Positions 12,495 to 37,015 of a stretch of 64,000 nucleotides of DNA are shown in pieces (the stretch's first letter is position 1; every line of letters begins with the position of its first letter). A program made the translations under genes and the position numbers. The notes below the pieces were generated by a model. The model was not told the DNA's origin. It ran no database searches and worked only from the letters and a program-made list of their open reading frames with translations. Source of the DNA: an uncultured Opitutaceae bacterium (lineage in GTDB: Bacteria > Verrucomicrobiota > Verrucomicrobiia > Opitutales > Opitutaceae); the NCBI GenBank assembly GCA_937902925.1, contig CALFNN010000037.1, positions 1 through 64,000 of the forward strand, written 5' to 3'.

Positions 12495-13724
12495 ATGACC
12501 CACTCTCGCGACCCGCGCCGTGCCGTCCCTTGGTGGACGCGCCCCGGCCTGGCCTACGAGCAGCGCGACCTCTGCCTCGCCGGCCGGTCGCTCGCGAAAC
12601 TCGCCCGTGCGCACGGCACGCCGCTCTACGTCTACGATGGCGCCCGCCTCCTCGCGAATCTCGGCCGCCTGCGGGCCGCCCTCGACGCGCGCGAGCTGCG
12701 CTCGCGGGTGTTCTACGCGATGAAATCCAACCGCCATCCGCCGCTGCTCCGCGCCCTGCGCCGGACCGGCCGGTGCGGTGCCGACACCTGCTCGCCCGCC
12801 GAGGTGGCCCGCGCGCGCGCCTGTGGTTTCGCGGCGGACAACATCTCGTTCACCGGCACCTCGCTCTCCGACGCCGACCTCGCCGCACTCCTGCGCCACG
12901 ACGGGCTCATCCTCAACCTCGACTCCCTGCACGACATCGCGCGCGTCGCCGCGCTCGCCCCGGGCCGGCGGGTCGGCCTGCGCATCAATCCGGGCCTCGG
13001 CCTCGGTTACCGCCGCAACCGGCTCCTTCGCTACGCTGGCGGCCGCGGCACGAAATTCGGTATTCACCGCGAGCAGTTCGCCGCCGCGCTCCGCCTCGCG
13101 CGCCGCGGCCGGCTCGTGATCGACGGCCTCCATTTTCACACGGGTTGCGGCTACCTCACGCCGCAGCTCCCGGTGCTGGACGAGATTTTCGCCGCGTGCC
13201 AGCCGTTCGTCGCCCGCGTGCCCGGCCTCCGTTACGTCAACCTTGGCGGCGGCCTCGGCATCCCGCTCGTCGCCGCCGACCGGCCGCTCGATCTCGCCGC
13301 GTGGAGTGCGGTCGTCGCGCGGCATTTCGGCGGGCGCGGCGTCGAGGTCTGGTGCGAGCCCGGCGATTACCTCGCCAAGGACGCCGGCGTGCTCCTCCTC
13401 GAGGTCAACACCGTCGAACGCAAGGGCCGCACGCTCTTCGCCGGCGTCAACGGCGGCTTCCAGCTCCATCTCGAGCCCGCGTTCTACGGCCTGCCGCTCG
13501 TCCCCGTGCCGGTCCGCGCCGCCGCGCCCGGCGCCCGGCTCCAGCCGACCACGATCGCCGGCCACATCAACGAGGCGCTCGACCTCCTCCACGTCGACGC
13601 CCCGCTGCCGCCGCTCGCCAACGGTGACCTGCTCGCGTTCCTCAATGCGGGCGGTTACGGCGCCGCGATGGCGAGCGATCACTGCATGCGCGGCGACTTC
13701 GCCGAGATTTTTCTGCCCGCGTGA
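12495..13724 (+). CDS. LysA-family (fold type III) PLP-dependent decarboxylase, divergent
   Basis: This 409-residue protein has the alanine-racemase-like barrel and C-terminal beta domain of the DAP/ornithine/arginine decarboxylases. FYAMKSNRHPPLL carries the PLP-Schiff-base lysine, HFHTGCG and NLGGGLGIP match the phosphate-binding region, and CEPGDYL is the G/CEP motif. The CESGD motif of true diaminopimelate decarboxylases is replaced by NEALD, so Cys becomes Asn while Glu stays. The final motif is GGYGAAMASDHCMRG instead of AGAYG...SNYN.RP. The substrate is therefore probably not meso-diaminopimelate, though a relaxed LysA cannot be excluded. The ATG at 12495 is chosen because the 71-codon upstream extension is Pro/Arg-rich with no family similarity. 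Its TGA overlaps the next gene's GTG by four bases, and it heads an eight-gene run. Confidence 0.82.
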   Translation: MTHSRDPRRAVPWWTRPGLAYEQRDLCLAGRSLAKLARAHGTPLYVYDGARLLANLGRLRAALDARELRSRVFYAMKSNRHPPLLRALRRTGRCGADTCSPAEVARARACGFAADNISFTGTSLSDADLAALLRHDGLILNLDSLHDIARVAALAPGRRVGLRINPGLGLGYRRNRLLRYAGGRGTKFGIHREQFAAALRLARRGRLVIDGLHFHTGCGYLTPQLPVLDEIFAACQPFVARVPGLRYVNLGGGLGIPLVAADRPLDLAAWSAVVARHFGGRGVEVWCEPGDYLAKDAGVLLLEVNTVERKGRTLFAGVNGGFQLHLEPAFYGLPLVPVPVRAAAPGARLQPTTIAGHINEALDLLHVDAPLPPLANGDLLAFLNAGGYGAAMASDHCMRGDFAEIFLPA

Positions 13725-14566
13725 AAACAAAAAAAACGCCGCACGGTCTCCTCGCCCGCGTCCTCGCCGCGCTGCGCGCCGAAATCGGCGCCGATCCCGC
13801 CCTCGCCGCGCTCGCCCCCGCCGACGCCGCCGCCCTCGCGATCGCCGCCCGCGGCGATGCCGCGCGGCTCAAGCGCTGGCTCAAGCGCCGCCTGACCGGC
13901 GAGCCGCTTGCCCACATCACCGGACGGCTCACCTTTCGCGGACTCGCGTTCGCCATCGACAAGCGCGCCTACGTTACCGATCCCGAGCTCACGCACCTCG
14001 TCGAAGCCGTGCTGGCCCGCGCGCGCGGAATCCACGCCGCCACGCGTCGCGCGCCGCTCTTGGCCGAAATCGGCGTCGGCTGCGGCAGCCTCGCCCTCTC
14101 GCTCAAGTACGCGTTTCCCGCGGCGCGTCTCGTCGGTCTCGAGCTCGATCCCGGCGCGCTTGCGCTGGCCGCCCGCAACGCCGCCGCCCATCGCCTCGCG
14201 CTCCGGCTGATCGAGAGCGATCTCTTCGACAGCTGGCCGGCTTCGCTGCGCGCCCCCGACCTGATCTACGGCGACCCGCCGTGGGGCGACGCCTCGACGC
14301 TCTACGAGGCGGACGCCCGTCCCGCCGGCCATTATCACGCGATGCCGCCGGCCTCCGCGTTTCCCCTCGGCGGGCGCACCGGCGTGCACGCCCAAATCCT
14401 CCATGCCGTGGCGCGGCGCCGCTGGCGTTCGGAGATCTGGCTCAACGGCGGCGTGCTGCCGCCCGCCGAGCTCGCCGCTGTCGCCCGCGCCGCCGGCGCC
14501 ACCACGGCGGAAGTCCTCGTCCCCGCGCCCGGCCTCGCCCTGCTGCGCTGCCGGATGCTGGCATGA
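13721..14566 (+). CDS. PrmC/HemK-like class I methyltransferase
   Basis: This 281-residue SAM-dependent methyltransferase has the N-terminal helical domain and linker of PrmC, with GEPLAHITGRLTFRGLAF, then LLAEIGVGCGSLALSL as the SAM-binding loop and VGLELDPGALALAARNA as the acidic loop. The catalytic NPPY motif of release-factor and DNA/protein amino-methylases is altered to GDPPWG, so its target may differ from the release-factor glutamine. It starts with GTG at 13721, overlapping the decarboxylase stop by four bases, so the two are translationally coupled and may modify the same compound or macromolecule. That last point is inference. Confidence 0.8.
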   Translation: MKTKKTPHGLLARVLAALRAEIGADPALAALAPADAAALAIAARGDAARLKRWLKRRLTGEPLAHITGRLTFRGLAFAIDKRAYVTDPELTHLVEAVLARARGIHAATRRAPLLAEIGVGCGSLALSLKYAFPAARLVGLELDPGALALAARNAAAHRLALRLIESDLFDSWPASLRAPDLIYGDPPWGDASTLYEADARPAGHYHAMPPASAFPLGGRTGVHAQILHAVARRRWRSEIWLNGGVLPPAELAAVARAAGATTAEVLVPAPGLALLRCRMLA

Positions 14567-14647: not shown

Positions 14648-15337
14648 ATGTCCCACCCACCGACCACCGAGATTAACGCGGAAAACAAGTCCGCGTGGAA
14701 CCAACTCTACGCCTCGACGCCCGAATCCATCTGGGGTCGCGAGCCCGTCGGCTTTCTCCGCCGCCACCTCCCGGCCGCGTCCGTCCTCCCGCCGGGCGCC
14801 CTGCTCGATGCCGCTGCCGGCGAGGGCCGCAACCTGCCGCCGCTCCTCGAGCTCGGGCGGCCCGTCACCGCGTGCGACGCCGCCGCGGCCGCGCTGGCGA
14901 AGATTCCCGCCGCGCTGCGCGCGCGGGTGACGATCCTCGAGTGCGACCTCGCGCAGCTCCCGCTCGGCGACGCGCAATTCGCCTTCATCCTGCTGAGCGA
15001 CGTCGTCGAGACCCTCCCGGAACCCGCCACCGTGCTGACCGAGATGCGCCGCCTGCTCGTGCCCGGAGGATTGCTCCTCGTGAACATCCCGGGCGACGAC
15101 GACGGCATCGCGGGCATCGACATGCAGCCCGCGCCCGGCCACGGCTGGCTCTACCGCGGCCGCTACTACTACCATTTCTACGGGCGCGCGGAGGCCGAGG
15201 CCTTGCTGGCGGCCGCCGGCCTCGCGCTTGTCGCGAGCGAGGTGAGCGCGTGGGACGAACCGCCGCACCCGCAGTTCCGCCCCGAGCCGCACGCGCACCG
15301 CAGCCGCGTGCTGCTCGCGCGGCGACCCGCGGGCTGA
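14648..15337 (+). CDS. Class I SAM-dependent methyltransferase
   Basis: This 229-residue protein has NAENKSAWNQLYASTPESIWG at its start, the SAM-binding segment LLDAAAGEGRNLPPLLELG, and the downstream motifs ILECDLAQLPLGDAQFAFILLSDVVE (quoted only as landmarks, about residues 96-121) and LLVPGGLLLVNIPG. It belongs to the Methyltransf_11/25-like group acting on small molecules, quinones or lipids; the substrate cannot be deduced. It lies 81 bases after the PrmC-like gene and 13 bases before the transporter gene, all on the plus strand, and is probably co-transcribed with them. Confidence 0.8.
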   Translation: MSHPPTTEINAENKSAWNQLYASTPESIWGREPVGFLRRHLPAASVLPPGALLDAAAGEGRNLPPLLELGRPVTACDAAAAALAKIPAALRARVTILECDLAQLPLGDAQFAFILLSDVVETLPEPATVLTEMRRLLVPGGLLLVNIPGDDDGIAGIDMQPAPGHGWLYRGRYYYHFYGRAEAEALLAAAGLALVASEVSAWDEPPHPQFRPEPHAHRSRVLLARRPAG

Positions 15338-15350
15338 ACGCCCACCCGCC

Positions 15351-18300
15351 GTGACGAGCGTGCTCCAGCAGCTGTTCCGGCTCGAACCGGGCGAAGGGCC
15401 GAAGATCGCGCGCTTCGCCCTGCTCGGCCTGCTGCTCCAGGCCGGCCTCGCGATGGGCACGAGCGCCGCGGACTCGCTGTTTCTCGTCAACGTCGGCGCC
15501 ACCAAGCTGCCCCACATCTACATCCTCACGCCGGTGATGATGCTGCTCTACATCCCGGCTTACTCGGCGCTGCTCGCGCGTTGGGGCATGGACCGCGTGT
15601 TCGACTGCACGCTCGGCGTCCTCATCGCCGGCGGCGTCACGCTGTGGCTGACCTTTGGGCACTACGCCGGCGCCGAGCCGCTCGTGCTCTGCTACGTGGT
15701 CAAGCTCTACGCCGCGCTCTGGTATGTCGGGCTCTACACGCTGTTCTGGAATTTCCTCGACGGCTACTTCGACCTCGTCAACGCGAAGCGCCTGTTCTCC
15801 CTCTTCGCCGCCGGCTCCGCCACCGGCGCCATCGTGGGCGGCAGCCTCGTCGCGCTGATCTCGGCGCGCTTCGGCGTGCACACGCTGTTCCTCGGCTGGG
15901 CCGTCTGCGCGGCACTCGCGTGGCCGGTCGCGCTGTTCACGCGGCGCCGCACGCCCCGACTCGAGGCCGACGAACCGGGGGAATCCGACGCCCCCGCGCT
16001 CGCCCAGGCCGTCGCGGCCGGCCGCCAGATCGTGCGCTCGCGCTACGCGCTCGTCCTCACCGCGGTGCTCTTCCTCACGCTGATCAACGCCACCGTCTGC
16101 GAATACCAATACATGGGCATCTTCTCCGACGGCATCGAGGAGGCGACGCTTGCCGCGCTGTTCGGCAAGCTCACCGCGATGGTCAACGTCGTGAATCTCG
16201 CCGTGAGCCTGTTCTTTTTCAACAAGCTCGTCGTCCGCTTCGGCGTCCGCAACGTCGCGCTCATCCAGCCCGTCGCCTACGCGGTGGTCTTCACGTGGCT
16301 CCTGCTCGACGGCGGCTTCCCCGCGGCCATCGCCGGCTTCTTCGCCTACCAGGGCATCATGACCGCGATCGATTTCAACAACGTGAACCTGATGTTCGCC
16401 GGCCTGCCCGCCTCGGGCCGCAAGCAGATCCGCACGGTCATCGAGGGTCTCTGCGAGCCGCTCGCGACAGCGACCGGCGGCTTTTTCCTGCTGCTCCTCG
16501 CGCCGCGCCTGAGTGCGGAGCAACTCTCCGTCGCCGGCATCGTCGTCGCCTTCGCGTGCCTCGCGCTCGTGTTCGTCCTCCGGGTCGACTACGTCGCCGC
16601 CATCACCGCCAATCTCCGCCGCGACTGGCTCGATTTCTCGTCGACGGCCGAGCCGTTGCTGCGCTCGGCCGGCCCCGCCGATCTCGACCTCGCCGAGGCG
16701 CGCACGCACGACCCCGATCCCGACACCGCCGCGCTCGCCCTGCGCGTGCTCTGGCTCAACGAGCCGCCGCGCGCCGTCCTCGCCCTGCTGGCGTTCCTGC
16801 GCCAGGCGACCCCCGCGGCGCGCGCCCGCCTCCAGCCGCTGGTCGACGAAATCCTCGCCAAATCCAGCACGCTCGCCGCGCAGGAAGTCCAGCGCTGGCT
16901 CGACGACGAGCAGGCGGCGATCGCCGGCGAATTCGCGGACGACGCCGGCGAACCGGCCCTCGCCGCGGCTTCGCCCGGCGGTCGCGCCACCCCGCCCGAA
17001 GCCCGCGCCGCGGCCGCGGTCGCCCTCTGGCGCAGCTGGCGCGTCGGCGACGGGCGCGACGCGCTGCGCCGGATCGAGGATCTCTTCGCCGCGAATGACG
17101 AGGCGTCGCTGCTCGCCGGGCTGCGCGCACTCGGCCGCCTCGGCGAGGGACGCTACGCCTATCTCCTGCGCGACTACCTGCGGTCGCCGTCGCCGGCCAT
17201 CCGCGGCGAGGCGCTGCACGCCCTGAGCCTCCTCGCCAATCGCTCGTCGCGGGTGCTGATGCCCGAGCTGCTGGCGACGCTGCGCGCCGGCAGCGGTGAG
17301 GAACGCCGCCTCGCGCTGCTGGCCTACGAGCGCATCGGCGATTCCGGCGCGCTGGGCACGCTGCTCGCAACCGCGGGGACGTTCACGCCCGCCGAGCGCC
17401 GGCAGACCGAGCAGATGGTCGAGCGCCTCGGTCCGCGGAGCGTTCCCACGCTCATCACGATCGCGCAAAGTCCGGGTTATACCGTCACCGCGCGCTCGGT
17501 GGCGTTGCGCGCCCTCGGCAAGCTCGCGCTGCCCCAGCTGCAGTCGCTCGCCGGTCCGCTCATCGACCACACCGCCCGCAAGGCCTACGTCGTCCTCGCC
17601 AACTCGATCGCCCTCGCCGGTGGCCCCGACTCCGACGCCGGTCGCGCCGTGCTGCATCGCATTTATTGCGACTATCCCCGGCTGGTCCTCGAGATCATCC
17701 TCGAAACCCTCACGGTCGCCGGCCGGCTCCACAGCTACGAGGCGGTGCTCGCCGGCTTGAACAGCGCGGAGTCAAAGGAACGCGGCTATGCCATCGAGTC
17801 CGTCGAGCAGGCGTGCGACCGGGAGACGTTCCTCCTGCTCCAGCCGCTGGTCGACGGACGCTCGCTCGAGGCCCAGGTCGCCTTCGGCCGGGCGCACGGT
17901 CTCATCCAGGTTCCCTCCCTCGCGCAAGTGCTCGAGCGCGCCCTCGCCTCGGAATTTCCGCTCGAGGCCGCCGCCGCGGCCCAGGCGTTGTATGCGGCGG
18001 ATGCCGCCGGGGCCGCCGGCCCCGCCCTCACCAAGGTTCGGACCATGGCGCGGCCGCTGCTCCGCGAAACGGTCCTCACGCTCTTCGCCCGCGCCGCCGG
18101 CCGCCACCCGCGCGCCGACGAAATCACCCCCGTCGAGGGCGTGCGCGCGTTGATGGAATCGCACGAGTTTGCCGGCGCGCTTTTCACGCATCTCGAATTC
18201 ATGGCGCCGCACATCCGGCGGACCACGCCCGCGGCGGGCACCGTCCTCGGCCGCCGGGGCGAGCCCCTGCCCGGCGCGTGGCTCGTGCGCCAGGGCGCGA

Positions 18301-18503
18301 TCGCGGTCGAGGGCGCCGCCCCGCACGGGCCGGGCACGATGGCCGGCCGCGATACCCTCCGCGGCGATCATCCGGCGCCCGCGACGCTCACCGCCGGCCC
18401 CGGGCTCGACGCGTTGTTTCTGCCCGCCCGCGTCGTGCGCCGCTGCATCGAGACCTATCCCGAGTTGGGTCTCGTCCTCCTCCGCAACGAGGTCCTCGCA
18501 TGA
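15351..18503 (+). CDS. ADP/ATP-translocase-like (NTT) membrane protein fused to HEAT repeats and a cNMP-binding-like domain
   Basis: This 1050-residue protein begins at GTG 15351. Residues about 20-420 contain around twelve membrane segments with features of the NTT/TLC nucleotide-transporter and MFS-related fold (LQAGLAMGTSAADSLFLVNVG, YTLFWNFLDGYFDLVNAKRLF). Residues about 430-900 are Ala/Leu-rich helical repeats of HEAT type (for example RGEALHALSLLANRSS, ARSVALRALGKLALPQL). The last 110 residues resemble a cyclic-nucleotide-binding beta roll (AGTVLGRRGEPLPGAWLVRQG). Transport of ATP/ADP or another nucleotide is inferred from family; in a free-living bacterium a regulatory role is equally possible. 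Its TGA overlaps the next ATG by four bases. The gene three places on from there encodes an adenylate cyclase in the same coupled unit, which fits the cNMP-like tail. Confidence 0.8.
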   Translation: MTSVLQQLFRLEPGEGPKIARFALLGLLLQAGLAMGTSAADSLFLVNVGATKLPHIYILTPVMMLLYIPAYSALLARWGMDRVFDCTLGVLIAGGVTLWLTFGHYAGAEPLVLCYVVKLYAALWYVGLYTLFWNFLDGYFDLVNAKRLFSLFAAGSATGAIVGGSLVALISARFGVHTLFLGWAVCAALAWPVALFTRRRTPRLEADEPGESDAPALAQAVAAGRQIVRSRYALVLTAVLFLTLINATVCEYQYMGIFSDGIEEATLAALFGKLTAMVNVVNLAVSLFFFNKLVVRFGVRNVALIQPVAYAVVFTWLLLDGGFPAAIAGFFAYQGIMTAIDFNNVNLMFAGLPASGRKQIRTVIEGLCEPLATATGGFFLLLLAPRLSAEQLSVAGIVVAFACLALVFVLRVDYVAAITANLRRDWLDFSSTAEPLLRSAGPADLDLAEARTHDPDPDTAALALRVLWLNEPPRAVLALLAFLRQATPAARARLQPLVDEILAKSSTLAAQEVQRWLDDEQAAIAGEFADDAGEPALAAASPGGRATPPEARAAAAVALWRSWRVGDGRDALRRIEDLFAANDEASLLAGLRALGRLGEGRYAYLLRDYLRSPSPAIRGEALHALSLLANRSSRVLMPELLATLRAGSGEERRLALLAYERIGDSGALGTLLATAGTFTPAERRQTEQMVERLGPRSVPTLITIAQSPGYTVTARSVALRALGKLALPQLQSLAGPLIDHTARKAYVVLANSIALAGGPDSDAGRAVLHRIYCDYPRLVLEIILETLTVAGRLHSYEAVLAGLNSAESKERGYAIESVEQACDRETFLLLQPLVDGRSLEAQVAFGRAHGLIQVPSLAQVLERALASEFPLEAAAAAQALYAADAAGAAGPALTKVRTMARPLLRETVLTLFARAAGRHPRADEITPVEGVRALMESHEFAGALFTHLEFMAPHIRRTTPAAGTVLGRRGEPLPGAWLVRQGAIAVEGAAPHGPGTMAGRDTLRGDHPAPATLTAGPGLDALFLPARVVRRCIETYPELGLVLLRNEVLA

Positions 18504-20620
18504 GCCGCCCCGCTTTCCGCCTCACCCTGCAGGGCACGCTGCTCCTCGGACTGCTGCCGGTCCTCGCCGTGCTGATCATCACCTACGCCACGCACGTCTA
18601 CTATGCGTTGAACGATCTCATCATGGAGGGCTTCGACCACAAGCTGATGGCGGTCTGCTCGACGACCGCCTCGTTCCTCGACCCCGCCGACCACGCCAAG
18701 CTCGTCGACCCGCTCCCGCTCGGCGGATTGTCGCGCGATCCCTCCGACAATCTCATCTGGGGTTACGACGTCAACGAGGGCCGGTTCCTGAAGATCCGCC
18801 CCACCGATGGTTTCGCCATTGTCACGCCCATCAAGCTGCCCAAGGGCTTCAACAACATCGCCTCCGGCATCGAGAAAAACGCGCTGCTCGTGCTCGATGG
18901 CGCGACCGGCCAGATGAAACTCCTCTCGACGATCACGGGCGAGACGACCGACGCCTTCCGCCTCGAGCCGCCGATCACCGGGCTCGCCACCGACAATCCG
19001 CGCGGCCTCCTCTACGCGAGCGGCCGCACGCTTGACCGCGTCGATCTCCACACCCTGCAGGTCACGCATCTCCGCGAGCTGCCGGAGCAGTATCGCGACA
19101 TCAGTTTCGACACCAAGCACCAGATCCTGTGGGCACTCTCCGAGCATGGCGACGAATTGCTGGACCTCGATCCCGCCGACGGCTCGGTCCGGCACCAGGT
19201 CAAGCTCGTCACGGAAAAGCCAGCCGACGCCCCGGCGGCCTGGCAGCCGCAGCCGGTGTCGCTGGTCGTCTTCGTTTACGATCCCGCGTCCGACCGCATG
19301 ATCGGGACCAGCACGTCGCTCGTGTCGGTCAACTGGCAGACTGGCGAAGTCTCCACCAAGGGTTTCCTGCCGGGGTTCGGCCGCGAACAGGGTCCGATCT
19401 ATCTCCGCTACGCCGTGCCGATGCGCCGGATCACCAACCGCACCAATCTCACCTTTCTCTACACGCAGCTCGTGCGCAACCGCGACCAGATCACCTACGG
19501 CATCGACGGCACCGTGGGCGACAAACATTCGCCGCTGCTGAGCCAGGATGTGCTCCCGGAATCCGAGATCGCCGGCGTGCAGCGGCTGCTCACGGAGGGC
19601 ACGCCGCACATCACCGCCGTCCGGGCGTGGGAAAAGTGGGGCCTGCTCAAGAGCGCGTTCGTCCCCATCTTCGACCAGCTCGGGCATCCGGTCGCGATGG
19701 CGGGCACCGACGTCGACATCACCACGATCCGTTACGAGACGCGGCGCGCGCTCGTCATCACGTTCACCTTTGGCGCGGCACTGCTGGTCCTGGCCGGGAT
19801 GCTGTCCTACGCGATCGCCCGCCAGCTCAACCGGCCCCTCGCCCTGATCAAGGCGGCCGCCCTTCGCGCCGCCGCGGGCGACTACGAACAGCACGTCGCC
19901 GTCCGCCGGCCGCGCGAGCTGCACGACCTCGCCCACGCGTTCTCCCACGCCACCGCGACCCTCGGCCAGAGCTTTCACGAATTGCGCGACGCCGTCACCG
20001 CCGGCCGCGCCCTGCGCGATCGCGACGCCCTCGTGCAACGCCTCTCCACCGTCGGCGCGCTGGCGGCCACGGCGCCCGCCGGCAGTCCGTGGGCGTGGGG
20101 CGTTCTCGCACCGGGACGCGAACCCGCCGGCAGCTCGAGCGGCGCCACGATGCATGACGGAGCGGCGCTCGTCTGGCTGCATTGCCCCATGGACGATGCG
20201 GTCGGCACCGCCGCCCGCCGGGCCGAGATCGCGCTCACCGCCGAGGCCCTGCTCCGCCGGCATGGCCCCGATGCGACCCGGCTCGCCGCGCCCCTCGGGC
20301 GGCTCTTCGCCGGTGAAATCGATCTCTGGGGCCTGCTCACGCCCGCCGGCGTGCACGTGCTCGCGCGCCGACCCGGCCTCGTGCATCGCGTGACCGCGGA
20401 CGGCGCGCCCGCGGTCGGCGCCGCGCCGGATTTTCTCACGCCGCTCCCCGCGGCGTCCGGCGAACTCATCGTTCTCGCCCACGCCGGTTCTCCTGTCGAA
20501 CGGCTGACCGTTCCAGCCACCGGTGCGGGAGGCGCCGCAGCGGCGTTTGCCGCGTGGCGCGGCGCCGTCCCGGCCGGCGGTCCCGTCCACTTCGTCGTCG
20601 TCGTCGCCTCGCCGTCATGA
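18500..20620 (+). CDS. HAMP-domain membrane sensor with periplasmic propeller-like region and degenerate PP2C (SpoIIE/RsbU-like) tail
   Basis: The protein has 706 residues. One membrane helix (about 9-30) precedes a large periplasmic part. Within it, residues about 85-290 contain repeated strands such as GLLYASGRTLDRVDLHTLQ and ILWALSEHGDELLDLDPADG, like a beta-propeller, and the section ending GHPVAMAGTDVDI resembles Cache sensors. A second helix (about 415-437) leads into a HAMP linker (RPLALIKAAALRAAAGDYEQ). The C-terminal 200 residues have the strand pattern of SpoIIE-type phosphatases, but I do not see the metal-binding aspartates, so a pseudophosphatase is suggested. The ATG at 18500 overlaps the transporter stop by four bases; the frame upstream of it is a shadow. 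Ligand unknown. Confidence 0.72.
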   Translation: MSRPAFRLTLQGTLLLGLLPVLAVLIITYATHVYYALNDLIMEGFDHKLMAVCSTTASFLDPADHAKLVDPLPLGGLSRDPSDNLIWGYDVNEGRFLKIRPTDGFAIVTPIKLPKGFNNIASGIEKNALLVLDGATGQMKLLSTITGETTDAFRLEPPITGLATDNPRGLLYASGRTLDRVDLHTLQVTHLRELPEQYRDISFDTKHQILWALSEHGDELLDLDPADGSVRHQVKLVTEKPADAPAAWQPQPVSLVVFVYDPASDRMIGTSTSLVSVNWQTGEVSTKGFLPGFGREQGPIYLRYAVPMRRITNRTNLTFLYTQLVRNRDQITYGIDGTVGDKHSPLLSQDVLPESEIAGVQRLLTEGTPHITAVRAWEKWGLLKSAFVPIFDQLGHPVAMAGTDVDITTIRYETRRALVITFTFGAALLVLAGMLSYAIARQLNRPLALIKAAALRAAAGDYEQHVAVRRPRELHDLAHAFSHATATLGQSFHELRDAVTAGRALRDRDALVQRLSTVGALAATAPAGSPWAWGVLAPGREPAGSSSGATMHDGAALVWLHCPMDDAVGTAARRAEIALTAEALLRRHGPDATRLAAPLGRLFAGEIDLWGLLTPAGVHVLARRPGLVHRVTADGAPAVGAAPDFLTPLPAASGELIVLAHAGSPVERLTVPATGAGGAAAAFAAWRGAVPAGGPVHFVVVVASPS

Positions 20621-21042
20621 AGACCGCCGAGACCATTGCGTTCGCTCCCACGCTGCTCGAACGAGCGTTCGCGCTGCGCACGGTGTCGCCGTTCGACCGG
20701 CTGACGCCGGCCGAACTCGTCCTGCTCGCCGACATCGCCGACGCGCGCGCCTATGCCCCGGGCGAGGTCGTGCACCCCGGCGGCCTGCCGTTCCCGCGGC
20801 TGTTCGCCGTCGTCGCCGGCCGGGTGGTCGACGAATCCGGCGCGCCGGCGGGGTCCCTCCTCGGCGCGCTCTCGCTGATCCGCCACACCGACGGTCCCCG
20901 CCTCGTCGCCGATCCGGCCACGGGCGCCCGCATCATCCGCCTCGATCGCGGGCCGTTCTTCACGATTCTGCGCGAGTGTCCCGCGTTCACCCTCGGCCTG
21001 CTCGCGCTCGGGCTGCGCCCGGCCACCGCTTCCCCCGCATGA
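20617..21042 (+). CDS. Small cyclic-nucleotide-binding-fold protein
   Basis: This 141-residue protein looks like a stand-alone cNMP-binding domain. SPFDRLTPAELVLLADIADA matches the N-terminal helix, followed by APGEVVHPGGLPFPRLFAVVAGRV and a C-terminal helix. No DNA-binding helix-turn-helix is attached. The phosphate-binding cassette (RxA-type GE...RAA) is poorly conserved, so cAMP binding is uncertain. ATGA overlaps on both sides embed it between the two HAMP sensors, so its dose is tied to theirs. A partner or adaptor role is inferred. Confidence 0.68.
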   Translation: MKTAETIAFAPTLLERAFALRTVSPFDRLTPAELVLLADIADARAYAPGEVVHPGGLPFPRLFAVVAGRVVDESGAPAGSLLGALSLIRHTDGPRLVADPATGARIIRLDRGPFFTILRECPAFTLGLLALGLRPATASPA

Positions 21043-22367
21043 CGATCCGCCGGCAGATTTTCCTGTTCGTCCTGCCGCTCTTCGTGGGGTTCGCCGCGAT
21101 TGGGAGCGTGGGCTCGTGGTGGCTCGAGACGACCGACGCCCGCCTCGCGTTCAACGACGAGGCGCGCTCCCTCGCCATCGCCATCGCCGAGTTTATCGAG
21201 CCCGACGATGTCGCCGCCGTCCGCGCCGGCACGCCGCCGATCAAGACCCGCCTCGGCCCGATCATCTCCCGCCTCCAGCGCTGGGGCATCGTGAAGCGTC
21301 TTTACCTGCTCGAACCCGCCACGGGCAAGGTGCTCGCCGACACGGCGCCCGCCGGCACGCCCGCCGCCTCGCTCGCCGACATCCAGGGCCTCGGCCCCAC
21401 CGAGGTTCGCGCCCTGCCCTGGCGCGACATCGAGGGCGGTTCCACCTGGGCGCCCCTAGTCACGCGCACCGAGCGTGCCCCGGGCATCCTCGGCGTCGAG
21501 CTTTCCGCCAACGGCTACATCGACAACCGCGACGGCATCGTCGTCGACGTCGTGAGGGACGGATTGCTCGTCGGGCTGTTCGGCCTCGCCGTCGCGGCCA
21601 TCCTCGGCGCCTTGCTGCGGCGCCAGGTGCGGCAGTTGCAACGCTCCGCGGAAACCATCGGCGGCGCGGCGTTCGTCGACGCCCCGGCCGACGCCATGGT
21701 CCGCGAGGTCGCGGATCTCGGCAACACCTTCGGCGTGATGCACAGCGTGCACGAGGAGACGGTCGATCGCACGCGCCGCTCGCTGGCCGAGGGCGACTAT
21801 TATCGCGGCGAACGCGCCCTCACCGACGCCTTCCAGCGCGAGCTGCAGCCCAAGTCCGCCTGGACCGGCGGCGCGGCGGCGGCGGCCTGGCTGCCGGTCG
21901 GCGAACCGCCGCCGGCGGCGCTCGCGGGTGCGCTCGCCACCGGGCCGGCGGACGGCACGGCCTTCGTCGGCACGGCCGGGGGCACCGGGGACCTGGTCGC
22001 GGTGCTGCGCGCGCGCGCCGCCGCGGCATTTCTCGCCGATGCCCTCGTGCGGTTGCCGATGTCGGAGGCGGCCACCGAGGCCGCGGCCCTCTTTGGCCTG
22101 GACCGGCTCATCGTCGTCCAGTGGCGGGGAGACCGGCTGGCGCGCTGGTCGTCCAATCCCGATGATGGCCATGAGCTGGACGCCACCCGCTGGGCCACGG
22201 GGGCCTCCGTTCCGCTCGCCTGCCTCGGCCCGGTCAATCGCGAGCGGCTCGATCTCTATCTTGCCAACTTCCCGGCGCACCCGGTCGCCGCGTTGCTGGA
22301 GGACCTGCCGCCGCTGCTTGACGCGCGGGAGCCGGGCGTTGTGCTCGTGCTCCGTCGCGCTTCATGA
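21039..22367 (+). CDS. Second HAMP-domain membrane sensor with degenerate PP2C-like tail
   Basis: This 442-residue protein has a membrane helix (about 7-27), a compact periplasmic domain of around 145 residues containing RLYLLEPATGKVLADTAPAG (Cache-like), a second helix (about 177-198), a HAMP region, and a C-terminal domain with ERALTDAFQRELQP. That last motif is reminiscent of the helix that leads into RsbU/SpoIIE phosphatase domains. As in the neighbouring larger sensor, phosphatase metal ligands are not evident. The ATG at 21039 overlaps the preceding stop by four bases; the frame continues upstream only as a shadow. Its stop overlaps the cyclase ATG, so sensor and cyclase are probably made in fixed ratio and may form one signalling complex. 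Confidence 0.72.
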   Translation: MTIRRQIFLFVLPLFVGFAAIGSVGSWWLETTDARLAFNDEARSLAIAIAEFIEPDDVAAVRAGTPPIKTRLGPIISRLQRWGIVKRLYLLEPATGKVLADTAPAGTPAASLADIQGLGPTEVRALPWRDIEGGSTWAPLVTRTERAPGILGVELSANGYIDNRDGIVVDVVRDGLLVGLFGLAVAAILGALLRRQVRQLQRSAETIGGAAFVDAPADAMVREVADLGNTFGVMHSVHEETVDRTRRSLAEGDYYRGERALTDAFQRELQPKSAWTGGAAAAAWLPVGEPPPAALAGALATGPADGTAFVGTAGGTGDLVAVLRARAAAAFLADALVRLPMSEAATEAAALFGLDRLIVVQWRGDRLARWSSNPDDGHELDATRWATGASVPLACLGPVNRERLDLYLANFPAHPVAALLEDLPPLLDAREPGVVLVLRRAS

Positions 22368-23761
22368 ACCCCGCCGTCACCCCGCCGCCGCTCGTCGCGA
22401 GTCACGACGCGCTGTTTGCGCACCAGATGCTCTGCGCCGGCGTCGCGCTCGTGCTCGCGTTGCTGCACTGGGCGCTGTTCGCGTTCGAGCCGCGGCGCCG
22501 GGAAAACTTTTTCTGCGGCCTCTTCGTCGCCACCTTCGGCACGCTCGTCTTCGCCAACTTCGCGACGCTGCTCGATCCCGCCACGATCACCGGCTGGGCC
22601 GGCCGGCTCTTCGCCGCGTCCATCGCCTTCGCCGCGATGAGCTGGTTGCTCACCCTGCACACCGTCTTCGCGACGCCGCGCCGGTGGTTCTGGCTCGGCT
22701 TCGCGCCGGTCGCCCTCGCGCTCGGCGCGTGGGGCGTCGCCGCCCCGGGGCCGTGGCCGGTCGCGTTGCTCGTCCTCGTGCTCGTTACGGCCGTCATCGC
22801 CGCCGTCGAGATCGGCCACGCCTGGCGCGAGGGCCGGCCGGGCGCGCGCCTGCTCGGCGCGGGCATGACAATCTTCGCGCTCCTCGTGGTCTACAGCGCG
22901 CTCCGCTCGCTCAACCTCGCGCCCGACACCCCGTGGGCGGTCTTCGCTCCCGCCTACGGCGGCATCTGCGCCGCGCTCACGCTGTCGCTGTTCGTCGCCC
23001 AGAGCCACGCCGAGCTCTCGCGCCGGGCGCTCGCCCACGAGCACGAGAAGCAGGCGCTGATCGAGGCCAAGAACGCCGAGCTCGAGGGCCTCGTGGCCGC
23101 GCGCACCGGCGAACTCCGCGCCGAGAAGGGCAAGGTCGACGAGCTGCTCTATAACATCCTCCCCCGCGAGACCGCCGACGAACTCAAGGCCACCGGCCGC
23201 GCCCAGCCCCGCCGCTTCGAGGACGTCACCATCCTGTTCACCGACTTCAAGGGCTTCACCAACACCGTCTCCGCGATGCCCGCCGACAAGCTCGTCAGCG
23301 AGCTCAACGAGATTTTCAACCACTTCGACGACCTGATGGACCGCCACGGCGTCCAGAAAATCAAGACCATCGGCGACGCCTACATGGCCGCCGGCGGCCT
23401 GCCCGGCCAGCCGCCCGACGGCGCCGGGCGAGTCGTCGACGCCGCGCTCGGCATGATCGCCTGCCTCGAGGAGCGCAACGCCCGCTCCGCCGTGAAATGG
23501 CAGATGCGCCTCGGCGTCCACACCGGCATCGTTGTCGCAGGCGTCGTCGGAAAACGGCGGCTCATCTACGATCTGTTCGGCGACACCGTGAATATCGCCA
23601 GTCGCATGGAAAGCCACGGCACGCCTGGCCGCGTCAATCTCTCCGCTTACAGCTACGACCTGGTGCGCGCGCGCTTCGACTGCGACTATCTCGGCAAGGT
23701 GGACATCAAGGGCAAGGGCGAGATCGACATGTATTCCGTGAAGCCGTCCGCAGCGGCGTAA
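22364..23761 (+). CDS. Class III adenylate cyclase, membrane-anchored
   Basis: This 465-residue enzyme has about six or seven N-terminal membrane helices (residues 20-215), a short coiled coil (HEHEKQALIEAKNAELEGLV), and a C-terminal class III catalytic domain. FTDFKGFTN and KTIGDAYMAAGG carry the two metal-binding aspartates and the purine-selecting lysine. YDLFGDTVNIASRMES carries the second adenine-selecting Asp and the transition-state Asn and Arg. The Lys/Asp pair predicts ATP and cAMP rather than GTP and cGMP. It is the last gene of a five-gene chain joined by ATGA overlaps that also encodes the NTT-HEAT protein, two sensors and a cNMP-fold protein. It should be catalytically active on sequence grounds. 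Confidence 0.93.
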   Translation: MNPAVTPPPLVASHDALFAHQMLCAGVALVLALLHWALFAFEPRRRENFFCGLFVATFGTLVFANFATLLDPATITGWAGRLFAASIAFAAMSWLLTLHTVFATPRRWFWLGFAPVALALGAWGVAAPGPWPVALLVLVLVTAVIAAVEIGHAWREGRPGARLLGAGMTIFALLVVYSALRSLNLAPDTPWAVFAPAYGGICAALTLSLFVAQSHAELSRRALAHEHEKQALIEAKNAELEGLVAARTGELRAEKGKVDELLYNILPRETADELKATGRAQPRRFEDVTILFTDFKGFTNTVSAMPADKLVSELNEIFNHFDDLMDRHGVQKIKTIGDAYMAAGGLPGQPPDGAGRVVDAALGMIACLEERNARSAVKWQMRLGVHTGIVVAGVVGKRRLIYDLFGDTVNIASRMESHGTPGRVNLSAYSYDLVRARFDCDYLGKVDIKGKGEIDMYSVKPSAAA

Positions 23762-23873: not shown

Positions 23874-24962
23874 ATGAAACTCCCGCTTCCGGCCCTCGCG
23901 GCCGCCTTCCTCGCCCTTGGCTGCGCTCCCTTCGTCCACGCCGACGTCCTTCATCTCAAGAACGGCGACACGCTCACCGGCAAGGTCCTCAGCCACGAGG
24001 GTGGCAAGGTCCGCCTCAAGGGCGACCTCTTCGGCGAAGTGACGGTCAGCGACAGCGACGTCGCCTCGTTCCAAGTCGGCGAGACCGCGGCCAGCACCGA
24101 GGCCGCCGCTCCCGCCACGGCCGCCGCGCCGCTCGCCGCCGGCAGTGCCGCCACGGGCGCCGCCGCCGGCGCCGGCTCCAGCAATTTCCAGGGCCAGCAG
24201 GGCGCACCGGACAAGCCCGTGTGGTCCAGCACCATCACCTTCGGCGGCAGCTACAACTCCGCCATCTTCGAGCAGGGCCAGCTCGCCGGGGCGCCTCCGG
24301 GCGTGACGGGCGGCGGCACCTTCAAGCTCCCGGGCCGCACCTACAGCATGCAGACCACCGCGAGCTTCGTCCGCACCACGCAGAGCGACGCCCACTCGCT
24401 CGACCTCTCCGAGACGTATTCCGACAGCCAGCCGAACGGCAAGATCGCCGACAACTACTCCGCCATCTTCGCCTGGAACCACAAGCTCACCCCGCGCACC
24501 TACACCGTCAGCCGCAGCTCCTACTCCGTCGACAAGGTCAAGAACATCGACTACTCCGCCTCCCAGATTTTCGGCTACGGCTACAAGGTCGTCGACACCG
24601 CGCAGACGAAGTTCGACCTCGTCCCCGGCGTGCTCCTGCTGCAGGAGGAGAAGGGTTCGAAATACGACGGTGACCTCGTCTATGGCGCGGGCATCCTCGA
24701 GAATCTCACCTACTATTTCAACCAGTTCGCCAGCTTCGACCAGCGCGTGCTTTACCGGCGCAGCATCCAGCACAGCGACCTCTACCTCGTCGACGCCTAC
24801 GCCGGCTTCAAGGGCATGCTCAGCGCGAAACTCGGGGTGACCCTCGGCGTGACCTACACCTACGACAACACGCTCGGGCCGCTCCCCGCGCCCTACTCCG
24901 CCATCCTCGCGCAGAAAAAGGGCATCCTGCAGACGACCTACGGCCTGCAGTATAAATTCTGA
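23874..24962 (+). CDS. DUF481 outer-membrane beta-barrel protein (YdiY-like)
   Basis: This 362-residue exported protein has a signal peptide (LPALAAAFLALGCAPFVHA). A short beta domain follows with the VLHLKNGDTLTGKVLSHEGG motif that precedes many DUF481 proteins, then an Ala/Gly-rich linker (about 65-105) and a DUF481 barrel of alternating strands ending LQTTYGLQYKF with a terminal aromatic. In the family this is called salt-induced outer-membrane protein; the molecular role is unknown. Own promoter is likely in the 112-base gap after the cyclase, and a strong terminator follows. Confidence 0.85.
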   Translation: MKLPLPALAAAFLALGCAPFVHADVLHLKNGDTLTGKVLSHEGGKVRLKGDLFGEVTVSDSDVASFQVGETAASTEAAAPATAAAPLAAGSAATGAAAGAGSSNFQGQQGAPDKPVWSSTITFGGSYNSAIFEQGQLAGAPPGVTGGGTFKLPGRTYSMQTTASFVRTTQSDAHSLDLSETYSDSQPNGKIADNYSAIFAWNHKLTPRTYTVSRSSYSVDKVKNIDYSASQIFGYGYKVVDTAQTKFDLVPGVLLLQEEKGSKYDGDLVYGAGILENLTYYFNQFASFDQRVLYRRSIQHSDLYLVDAYAGFKGMLSAKLGVTLGVTYTYDNTLGPLPAPYSAILAQKKGILQTTYGLQYKF

Positions 24963-34593: not shown

Positions 34594-36585
34594 TCAGGGC
34601 GCCAGCACCACGCAACGATTTCCCCACAGCTCGCGCAATTCGGGCACCAGTGCAACCACGGCTTCGCGGGTCACGCCGGCCCGGTCGCCGAGTTCGCCCA
34701 AGGTGGCGCGCCCATCCGCCATCCCGAGCAGGCGATACAACGCGGGCGAGAGTCTCGCGGTCTTGCCCTGATGATAGGTGAACCGCGCCTCGTGCACCCA
34801 GGCCTGCTCCGTCGCGCTCGTCCAGCGGCGCTCGGCGGCGAGCGCAACCGTCACGGGCAGCGCGACCCTCAACGCCAGCCACGCGTCCGGCGCAGGTTCT
34901 CGTTTCGTTACGAGCCAGTCGCCGACCACCAGGGCGTGCAGATCGGTCGTGAGAAAACACCCGATCGCGTCGCCCGCCGTCTCGACGATCGGTTCCGCGT
35001 GGTTGTTGAACGAGGTATTCAGCAGCATCGGCACGCCCGTCCGCTCGCCAAACGCGCGGATCAATTCCCAGTAGCGCGGGTTCGTCGCCCGCGCCACCGT
35101 CTGCACCCGCGCCGTGCCGTCGACGTGCGTGATCGCCCCGAGCAGCGCGCGGCACTCCGGCCGCACGTCGAGGATCACGCTCATCGAGGGAAAGGTCTTT
35201 TGCGCGGCCGTCGTGACGAAGTAGTCGTCGACCTTCTCCGCCAGCACCGACGGCGCGAACGGCCGGTAGGCTTCGCGCTTCTTCACCATCCGGTTGATGA
35301 TGTCCTTGTTTTCCGCGGGTCGCGGATCGGCGAGGATGCTGCGGTTGCCGAGCGCGCGCGGTCCGAACTCGGATCGTCCCTGCACCCAGCCGATCGCCTT
35401 GCCCCCCGCGAGCAGGTCCGCCGCGCGCGCCACGATGGCATCGCACCGTTCCACCGCGACCAACCTGCCCCACCCTTTCAGCTCCCGCTCGATCTCGGCG
35501 TCCGTTCCAACGTCGCCGCCCCAGTAAACGTGCGTCAGAGGCTCGACGGTCGACGCTGGCGCCTTCGCCCGCTGGACCGCGAGCGCCGCGCCGAGCGCGC
35601 AACCCGCATCGTGCGCCGCGGGCTGCACAAACATCCGCTCGAACACCCCGGCGTAAAGGACCCGGCCGTTCATGGAACAGTTGTGCGCCACACCGCCGAC
35701 CAGGCAGAGGTTCCTGTGGCCCGTCGCGCGCTGCCAGTGCGTCAGCAGGTGCAGCCCGAGTTCCTCGACCGCCTCCTGCAACGCCGCCGCGATGTGCTGG
35801 TGCGCCTCGGTGAACGCCTCCCCTTTCCGCCGCGGCTTCGTCACGTGAAACAAGGCGGAGAGGCGGTCGAGGTGCAGCCGGTAGTTTCCGTCGGGCAGCA
35901 ACTCGTAGAAGGTCTTGAACAGCGTCCGCAGTCGCGCCGGATCGCCGTAGGGCGCCATGCCCATGACCTTGTATTCGTCGAACATCTCGTAGCCGAGGAA
36001 CCGGATCACGTCGCGGTAGAAAAATCCCAGCGAATCCGTCTCCAAAAACTTCTTCAACGGCTTCAACTCGCGCCCGCGTCCATCGTAGATCGCCACGGCC
36101 ACCCCCTCGCCCTGCCCGTCGAGGCTCGCGACCAGCGCCGCGTCGAAACCCGACATCGCATACGCGCTCACCGCGTGCGCCCAGTGGTGGTCGACGAAAT
36201 GAATCTTCGCGGCGTCCAGCTCCGCGCCCAGCGCCGTGCGCCACATCCGTTGCACGTAGGCCCGCGGCGTGAGCAGCTCGCGCGGCGCGAAATCCGCGAG
36301 ATGCAGCAACTCCAGCACGCGCTTCACGTAGGGCTCCGTCGCGTAGAACGCCACCGCGTCGATCTCCTCCGGCCCAAGGCCCGCCTGCGTCAGGCAAAAA
36401 CGGATCGCCGCGTGCGGCGCCTTGTTCGTGTGCTTGATCCGGTTGAGCCGCTCCTCCTCCATCGCCGCGAGCACCCGCCCGTCGCGCACCAGCACGGCCG
36501 CCGCATCGTGGACGTTGTCGAACCGCAGCGCGTAGTCGTTCGCGTGGGCGGCATCGAGGCCGCCGGTGAGCCCGAGGACGGTCAT
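34594..36585 (-). CDS. NodU/CmcH-family carbamoyltransferase
   Basis: This 663-residue tailoring enzyme should transfer a carbamoyl group from carbamoyl phosphate, via carbamoyl-AMP, to a hydroxyl of the product. The N-terminal Kae1-like domain has VDHHWAHAVSAYAMSGF (metal-binding histidines), DGQGEG and GGVAHNCSMNG. The YrdC-like C-terminal part has FGPRALGNRSIL, KKREAYRPFAPSVL and NTSFNNHAEPIVET. About 100 further residues resemble a winged-helix or PqqD-like domain (LYRLLGMADGRATLGELGDRAG). The ATG at 36585 follows the thioesterase stop after a single base; upstream frame is shadow. It is the last gene of the NRPS-PKS cluster. A serine side chain or a ketide hydroxyl is the likely acceptor, by inference. 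Confidence 0.92.
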   Translation of the reverse strand: MTVLGLTGGLDAAHANDYALRFDNVHDAAAVLVRDGRVLAAMEEERLNRIKHTNKAPHAAIRFCLTQAGLGPEEIDAVAFYATEPYVKRVLELLHLADFAPRELLTPRAYVQRMWRTALGAELDAAKIHFVDHHWAHAVSAYAMSGFDAALVASLDGQGEGVAVAIYDGRGRELKPLKKFLETDSLGFFYRDVIRFLGYEMFDEYKVMGMAPYGDPARLRTLFKTFYELLPDGNYRLHLDRLSALFHVTKPRRKGEAFTEAHQHIAAALQEAVEELGLHLLTHWQRATGHRNLCLVGGVAHNCSMNGRVLYAGVFERMFVQPAAHDAGCALGAALAVQRAKAPASTVEPLTHVYWGGDVGTDAEIERELKGWGRLVAVERCDAIVARAADLLAGGKAIGWVQGRSEFGPRALGNRSILADPRPAENKDIINRMVKKREAYRPFAPSVLAEKVDDYFVTTAAQKTFPSMSVILDVRPECRALLGAITHVDGTARVQTVARATNPRYWELIRAFGERTGVPMLLNTSFNNHAEPIVETAGDAIGCFLTTDLHALVVGDWLVTKREPAPDAWLALRVALPVTVALAAERRWTSATEQAWVHEARFTYHQGKTARLSPALYRLLGMADGRATLGELGDRAGVTREAVVALVPELRELWGNRCVVLAP

Positions 36586-36586
36586 G

Positions 36587-37015
36587 TCAGTTCGCCGTCG
36601 TCGCCGGACCCGCACCGCGCAGCCACGCCATGAACGGCGCCGGCAGCGCCTTGCGTTCCAGCGTGTGCAGGTCGATCGCCATGTGCTCGGTCCGCGCCAG
36701 TCCGACGAGCTTCTCCGTCGCGCCAAGATGCACGAGGCGGTAGGAGATCCCGAACGCGTTGTCGCCCGTCGCGGTCGCCGTCAGCTCGATCCGCACGCGA
36801 TCGCCGCTCTGGAGCGGGCCGAGAAACTGCGCCTGCGTTTTCGTGATCGGGATGAGGAGCTTGTTTTCGCCGAAAAACTTCCGCAGCTCGAGCCCGGCCT
36901 TCGCCAGGCTCGCCTCGTAGGCCTCGTGGCAGAGCACGAGGTAATTGGCAAAAAACACGAAACCCGCCCCGTCGACCTCGGCGAAACGAATCGTGCGTTC
37001 GTAGTGGGTGCTCAT
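36587..37015 (-). CDS. Hotdog-fold acyl thioesterase (4HBT/YbgC type)
   Basis: This 142-residue hotdog thioesterase has the family opening TIRFAEVDGAGFVFFANYL (compare the FxxTDxxGxxxxxxY pattern of 4-hydroxybenzoyl-CoA and DHNA-CoA thioesterases) and the central strands LLIPITKTQAQFLGPLQSGD and RVRIELTATATG. It begins 32 bases after the last PKS gene and ends one base before the carbamoyltransferase ATG, so it belongs to the cluster. No type I alpha/beta-hydrolase TE domain is seen on the PKS/NRPS proteins in this window, so it may release the finished chain from the last ACP. A proofreading role is the alternative. Confidence 0.85.
   Translation of the reverse strand: MSTHYERTIRFAEVDGAGFVFFANYLVLCHEAYEASLAKAGLELRKFFGENKLLIPITKTQAQFLGPLQSGDRVRIELTATATGDNAFGISYRLVHLGATEKLVGLARTEHMAIDLHTLERKALPAPFMAWLRGAGPATTAN

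Follow-up and report, generated by a model that had tools for sequence, protein, structure and literature searches.

We identified a conserved set of four genes, encoding membrane and receptor proteins, in a 64,000-nucleotide stretch of DNA from an uncultured Opitutaceae bacterium (assembly GCA_937902925.1, contig CALFNN010000037.1, positions 1 to 64,000 of the forward strand), here called the window. The set encodes an NTT-like membrane protein with HEAT repeats and a C-terminal cyclic nucleoside monophosphate (cNMP) fold, receptor 1, a small cNMP-fold protein and receptor 2. A fifth, overlapping gene encodes a class III adenylate cyclase; it is an addition specific to this lineage and does not belong to the core. 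The reading that we prefer, tentatively and with slightly less than even confidence, is that of a conserved four-gene receptor core whose output enzyme can be exchanged. It is carried by the gene content and its conservation, the loss of the cyclase from sister genomes, the loss of ligand and transport residues, and the PP2C fold in a predicted model of receptor 2.

Searches of 95 relatives, 388 genomes of the phylum, 373 genomes of the order and 85,000 species genomes yielded nine loci in the Opitutales and Kiritimatiellae which carry the genes for the NTT-HEAT-cNMP protein, receptor 1, the cNMP protein and receptor 2, in identical order in all nine. These were the window, G025, L013, EW11 (G033/L008/L018), G345 (L033), G675 (L051) and G062 (L009) as well as, in the Kiritimatiellae, L017 (G388) and G418 (L032). 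The core is rare, being present in 6 out of 373 Opitutales genomes. In G025 it is split over two short contigs with the break inside receptor 1. Between the cyclase-less genomes G025 and L013 the core genes showed dN/dS ratios (nonsynonymous to synonymous substitution) of 0.17-0.30 and open reading frames. Thus, genes 1-4 are under selection independently of the cyclase. A first-pass annotation of this DNA had proposed a five-gene unit; in the neighborhood search genes 1-4 stayed together and the cyclase did not, so that a conserved, overlapped set of membrane and receptor proteins holds for the first four genes at the nine loci. In a tree of the NTT proteins, the window, L013, G025 and L016 grouped together (100/100) and adjoined L015 and G345 (98/99). 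EW11 and G062 were placed on long branches without a firm position. Individual members carry additional domains: the small cNMP protein of G062 (L009 12167-13069) has an N-terminal GAF domain (65.8 bits), and receptor 1 of G418 (L032 10970-13345; 791 amino acids) has, as judged by eye, an extra N-terminal extracytoplasmic sensor-like part.

The five plus-strand open reading frames and their ATGA overlaps at 18500, 20617, 21039 and 22364 were found at the positions given before. The junction between receptor 1 and the cNMP protein is -4 in every locus holding that junction, and the junction between the cNMP protein and receptor 2 is -4 in all loci except G062. Such junctions recur across the loci beyond chance expectation. 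The fixed protein ratio which had been derived from the overlaps is not implied by a 4-bp overlap alone, because this is a frequent operon spacing.

The cyclase of the window matched Guanylate_cyc (PF00211) with 184 bits and 7TMR-DISM_7TM with 43.7 bits. Its segments KIKTIGDAYM and YDLFGDTVNIASR align to the mammalian adenylate cyclases AC8/AC9, and this alignment confirmed the previously noted complete ATP-type active site, with two metal Asp, the ATP-type Lys/Asp, the Asn and the Arg all present. Hence, the protein is predicted to be an ATP-type adenylate cyclase that produces cyclic AMP (cAMP). An intact cyclase was found in only one of the nine core loci, that of the window. In G025 the gene is a pseudogene with frameshifts and stops which has lost the base-recognizing Lys, the second metal Asp and the transition-state Asn. 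Of this pseudogene, the L013 locus retains nothing but two terminal fragments (blastn E 1e-10 and 3e-6), which are flanked by receptor 2 and the DUF481 gene. The latter gene is a neighbor common to the window, L013 (56% identity) and G025, and also to L007; the shared flank marks the loci of the window, L013 and G025 as orthologous. Since the remnants in G025 and L013 are about 30% diverged, close to the level at synonymous sites in the core genes (pS ~0.33), the data suggest that the cyclase was already neutral when these two lineages split, bearing in mind that local alignments favor similar parts.

These observations could also be read as evidence for an unrelated hitchhiker, i.e. a cyclase with its own 7TM sensor that became inserted downstream of the core, with co-transcription as its only link to it. 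The protein does have its own 7TMR-DISM domain, it was lost from sister genomes whose core remains selected, and it has a free-standing paralog. Ten class III cyclase matches were found in the window genome. The paralog, on contig C40 (L010 7137-9095), shares 47% identity with the window cyclase, is 63% identical to a cyclase of G026 and carries an extra N-terminal part. However, the exact 4-bp overlap, the intact active site in the window species and the fact that the cyclase occupies the place of a phosphatase in other loci speak against a hitchhiker, and we regard this reading as quite unlikely.

This phosphatase is a HAMP-SpoIIE protein encoded behind the core in EW11, L017 and G418, with intact GGD, GDVS, GHN and DD motifs. 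In EW11 it is joined to the core by a 4-bp overlap. Full-length SpoIIE matches were limited to EW11, G388 (the genome of L017) and G418, and each was located at the core locus. The gene list of the window locus contains neither an active phosphatase nor a STAS protein nor an RsbW-type kinase, and the EW11 locus has all three. In G062 the fifth position is taken by a polyamine-type solute-binding protein gene (L009 14501-15868), which overlaps receptor 2 by 4 bp. Upstream of the G062 core (L009 1038-3760), genes for an ATP-binding cassette ATPase (PotA-like by eye) and another solute-binding protein were observed.

Receptor 1 has a HAMP domain (37.7 bits), and its Cache/HAMP part matches the profile of the SpoIIE proteins of these loci with a probability of 98.3%. 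In a structure search its propeller gave Z 19.5 to YjiK, and propeller matches filled the list. In the AlphaFold2 (AF2) model, the tail following the HAMP domain shows an order of elements resembling that of a PP2C domain. For receptor 2, a HAMP domain was detected in the homolog from L017 (37.6 bits); single sequences of the small cNMP protein and receptor 2 gave no credible Pfam family. The AF2 model of receptor 2 has a pTM (predicted template modeling score) of 0.43 overall, and its tail has pLDDT values (predicted local distance difference test) mostly of 80-93. In the fold search this tail matched RsbX with Z 14.4 (3.2 Å over 162 residues), followed by an RsbU domain (13.7), RssB (13.2) and SiaA (12.2). 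Across eight members it has no invariant residue and has lost the metal-binding Asp motifs. According to the model it is a PP2C domain, and by its sequence a catalytically dead one. The receptor tails gave no match to PF07228 (SpoIIE). Homology of the tails to SpoIIE at the sequence level was considered and is unsupported, because profile similarity was at about control level; the predicted fold is therefore the basis of the PP2C assignment. Two degenerate SpoIIE-like sensors had been annotated before; given the PP2C fold in its model, this label is right for receptor 2, and for receptor 1 it is reduced to a similar order of elements.

Protein 1 combines NTT domain, HEAT repeats and cNMP fold in one chain and in this order, and thus fits the architecture of the NTT-HEAT-cNBD proteins (cNBD, cyclic nucleotide-binding domain). 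Pfam searches gave HEAT_2 with 38.4 bits, with MFS_1 and TLC under their cut-offs; PF03219 (TLC) was matched by 7 of 8 members, the window copy staying below. The profile of the NTT subfamily matched the plant ADP,ATP carrier structure 9j3j (E 1.6e-10) as well as 9j3n (E 6.5e-9). The tail scored 18.5 bits at a cNMP cut-off of 27.5, and its fold is supported by the profiles of relatives, which match PKG/CNG domains. The previous annotation of an NTT-like membrane protein with a cNMP-like tail is therefore upheld by profile searches, which show homology to structurally characterized ADP,ATP carriers of plants and chlamydiae. In AtNTT1 the charged residues K155, E245, E385 and K527 are important for ATP/ADP exchange (PMC4256464, PMC10654386). 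Their equivalents in the window protein are Y57, A122, E251 and T373, i.e. three of the four are replaced, and none of the core loci tested retains any of these three. For E245, E385 and K527 the mapping was made via 9j3j and for K155 via a weaker alignment with Npt1; the offset in numbering agrees with three of the four positions. An ATP/ADP carrier of the canonical mechanism was ruled out by the loss of these three residues. Judged from its residues, protein 1 is probably a scaffold or a substrate sensor rather than an ATP carrier.

The profile of the small cNMP protein matched the cNMP domains of PKG (E 1.2e-12) and also the NTT tails, and the annotated fold of this separate protein was confirmed by its match to PKG/CNG domains. 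For a comparison of residues, a PKG domain and L012, a canonical NTT-HEAT-cNMP protein, served as references in the alignment. None of the eight stand-alone cNMP proteins has the Glu or the Arg of the phosphate cassette. Among the NTT tails, those of EW11 and L017 keep both residues, and those of the window, L013 and G025 have lost them. Thus, the branch with the cyclase is one whose tail seems incapable of binding cAMP in the usual mode. In the model of the first-pass annotation, external signals set the cAMP level in a membrane complex, and the transporter-like protein is in turn subject to feedback by cAMP; the small cNMP protein would be a second target. A complete ATP-type cyclase inside an overlapped operon and two cNMP folds in the same operon would suit such a loop, and the same proposal was made for NTT-HEAT-cNBD proteins (PMC5381601). 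Feedback on the operon is unlikely, because both cNMP folds lack the cassette Glu and Arg. The tails of EW11 and L017 keep these ligands, yet no cyclase is present there. In addition, both sister genomes retain the core without a functional cyclase, which is a pseudogene in one and deleted in the other, and three of four transport residues are gone. We therefore consider the feedback model very improbable. A five-gene cAMP unit was rejected on the basis of the cyclase loss in relatives and the ligand residues. The window genome encodes other cNMP proteins above the family cut-off, which could be targets of cAMP.

For the four-gene core with a replaceable output enzyme, we propose the following mechanism, in which complex formation, the direction of signaling and the coupling of cyclase and core are inferred from domain anatomy. 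Genes 1-4 would form a membrane signaling core composed of a transporter-derived protein, two receptors and a small cNMP-fold adaptor. The receptors may relay an extracytoplasmic signal through HAMP domain and pseudo-phosphatase tail, and by protein contact to the output enzyme encoded beside the core. In EW11 and the Kiritimatiellae this output would be the active-looking HAMP-SpoIIE phosphatase, with genes for STAS and RsbW-like proteins located nearby in EW11. In the window it would be the class III adenylate cyclase, which is related to the 7TMR-DISM cyclases of this genome and whose cAMP may act on canonical cNMP proteins elsewhere and not on its own operon. Its strongest form, in which a former transporter, receptors with dead phosphatase domains and non-binding cNMP adaptors accept either a PP2C phosphatase or a cyclase in one place, is possible but doubtful. 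Several observations weigh against the proposed mechanism. SpoIIE was found at just three loci and is 0.7 kb distant in L017, STAS/RsbW-like genes are located near the core in EW11 alone, and the receptor tails were not clearly above shuffled controls when compared with SpoIIE profiles. Moreover, G345 and G675 have neither a cyclase nor SpoIIE beside the core, and hence the core may be functional without an output enzyme.

In the Opitutales the core is part of a larger conserved block that was absent from the first-pass annotation and starts with genes for a LysA-like decarboxylase, a PrmC-like protein and a methyltransferase on the same strand. The LysA-like protein scored 218 bits with TIGR01048, under the cut-off of 297.9. 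The true LysA is encoded elsewhere in the genome (C105, 454.6 bits), which identifies the copy as a paralog. It is also present upstream in L013, L015, L016, L033, L051 and L008. The PrmC-like protein scored 90 bits with TIGR03534, under the cut-off of 199; its gene is kept in L013, L015, L016 and L009 and fused to the next gene in L051 (G675). Wherever the flank of an Opitutales locus is long enough, the S-adenosylmethionine (SAM) methyltransferase gene is found ahead of the NTT gene; in EW11 it forms a fusion with LysA. No matches were obtained when the window was scanned for Rfam families and tRNAs. The features of the locus are listed in Table 1.

Table 1. Genes of the module and its flanks in the window.
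Feature	Coordinates	Strand	Details
LysA-like pyridoxal phosphate-dependent decarboxylase, paralog; precedes the module as a conserved partner in Opitutaceae	12495..13724	+	Orn_Arg_deC_N 108 bits
PrmC/HemK-like methyltransferase; 4-bp overlap with LysA-like gene	13721..14566	+	PrmC_N and MTS matches
Class I SAM methyltransferase; 13 bp upstream of NTT gene	14648..15337	+	Methyltransf_11 58.6 bits
NTT-like membrane domain (~1-430), HEAT repeats, degenerate C-terminal cNMP fold	15351..18503	+	GTG start, 1050 amino acids
Receptor 1: transmembrane segment (TM), extracytoplasmic beta-propeller 71-294, Cache-like ~299-406, TM, HAMP, putative tail of PP2C order	18500..20620	+	706 amino acids
cNMP-fold protein without canonical cyclic-nucleotide ligands	20617..21042	+	141 amino acids
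Receptor 2: TM, Cache-like domain, TM, HAMP-like linker, predicted pseudo-PP2C tail 270-442	21039..22367	+	442 amino acids
Predicted class III adenylate cyclase carrying a 7TMR-DISM membrane domain of its own; output gene specific to this lineage	22364..23761	+	465 amino acids
DUF481 outer-membrane-type protein; downstream flank	23874..24962	+	DUF481 54.3 bits

Another explanation starts from these upstream enzymes, which may make or modify a small molecule that the NTT-derived protein moves or senses while the receptors monitor the outside, the whole serving a nonribosomal peptide synthetase/polyketide synthase (NRPS/PKS) cluster with cyclase or phosphatase as side outputs. The module adjoins the main NRPS/PKS cluster in four genomes. 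In G345 all 12 condensation domains of the genome are located within ~55 kb of the module, in G675 8 out of 9 are on the module contig within 40 kb, and in the L013 genome 11 out of 12 are on the same 81-kb contig on both sides of the module. The window contig (C37, extending to ~95 kb) holds the majority of the condensation domains of its genome, with a large PKS/NRPS cluster on the minus strand at 37047-63855. Random placement that close has a probability of ~0.01 per genome, but these genomes are kin and the four co-locations are non-independent. The paralogous nature of the LysA-like copy and a phosphopantetheinyl transferase (PPTase) gene 3' of receptor 2 in G675 fit a biosynthetic role as well. 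In contrast, EW11 combines the full core with LysA and both methyltransferases, and its genome has not a single condensation domain; the Kiritimatiellae likewise have no condensation domains, and their core is not accompanied by these enzymes. Taken together, the data support a link to secondary metabolism in the Opitutaceae, but not as the original function, and as an account of the module we consider the biosynthetic explanation rather unlikely.

Further genes were observed in these neighborhoods. A pair encoding a carbamoyltransferase and a thioesterase-like protein is located beside the NRPS/PKS genes, downstream of the module in the window (34594-37015) and upstream in L013 (44-2418). The PPTase gene of G675 is of the Sfp type and directly follows receptor 2 (L051 12060-12827), and a similar-looking gene (by eye) lies beside an NTT-type gene in G022 (L006 2706-3455). 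Three out of three loci of the Kiritimatiellae have, as judged by eye, a formyltransferase-like gene in divergent orientation upstream of the NTT gene (L017 8722-9930, L019 3682-4809, L032 16859-17929).

The four-gene core is only partly covered by known systems. It had been stated that no named system is known to have this composition. NTT-HEAT-cNBD fusions were described by Major et al. 2017, who suggested their control by cAMP and also reported that some NTT-HEAT genes are directly followed by a separate cNBD gene and that NTT-HEAT proteins are widely distributed, including an uncharacterized one in Chlamydia (PMC5381601). Thus, the architecture and the cAMP idea are already published. The passages of that paper covered here do not mention receptors, SpoIIE or these neighbors. 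The window protein shares the domain order of the fusions described there but has a degenerate cNBD, and a second mini-cNMP protein, two HAMP receptors (one with a predicted dead-phosphatase tail) and an exchangeable output gene are added. Literature searches, with most subscription journals outside their coverage, returned no paper on the receptor set or output exchange and none combining NTT, HEAT, cNBD and SpoIIE; for Verrucomicrobia, cyclase and SpoIIE they returned an unrelated review alone. With the plastid and chlamydial ATP/ADP carriers AtNTT1 and Npt1 protein 1 shares a homologous membrane domain, but not the three replaced charged residues. The Cache-HAMP-PP2C architecture resembles RsbU-RsbV-RsbW and SiaA partner switching, and EW11 and the Kiritimatiellae have an active-looking SpoIIE in place. 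The window locus differs in lacking active phosphatase, STAS protein and kinase, in a receptor 2 tail that is dead by its sequence, and in a cyclase as putative output. The cyclase itself combines 7TM domain and class III catalytic domain like the 7TMR-DISM adenylate cyclases, but unlike its paralog on C40 it lacks the N-terminal part and is embedded in a receptor operon.

The locus argues that one branch of the NTT-HEAT proteins abandoned ATP transport and joined a receptor complex. It also provides a natural experiment, because the same core is found with a live, dead or deleted cyclase, with a phosphatase, or with nothing. This allows testing of the role of the core on its own and of whether pseudo-phosphatase receptors may steer different enzymes.

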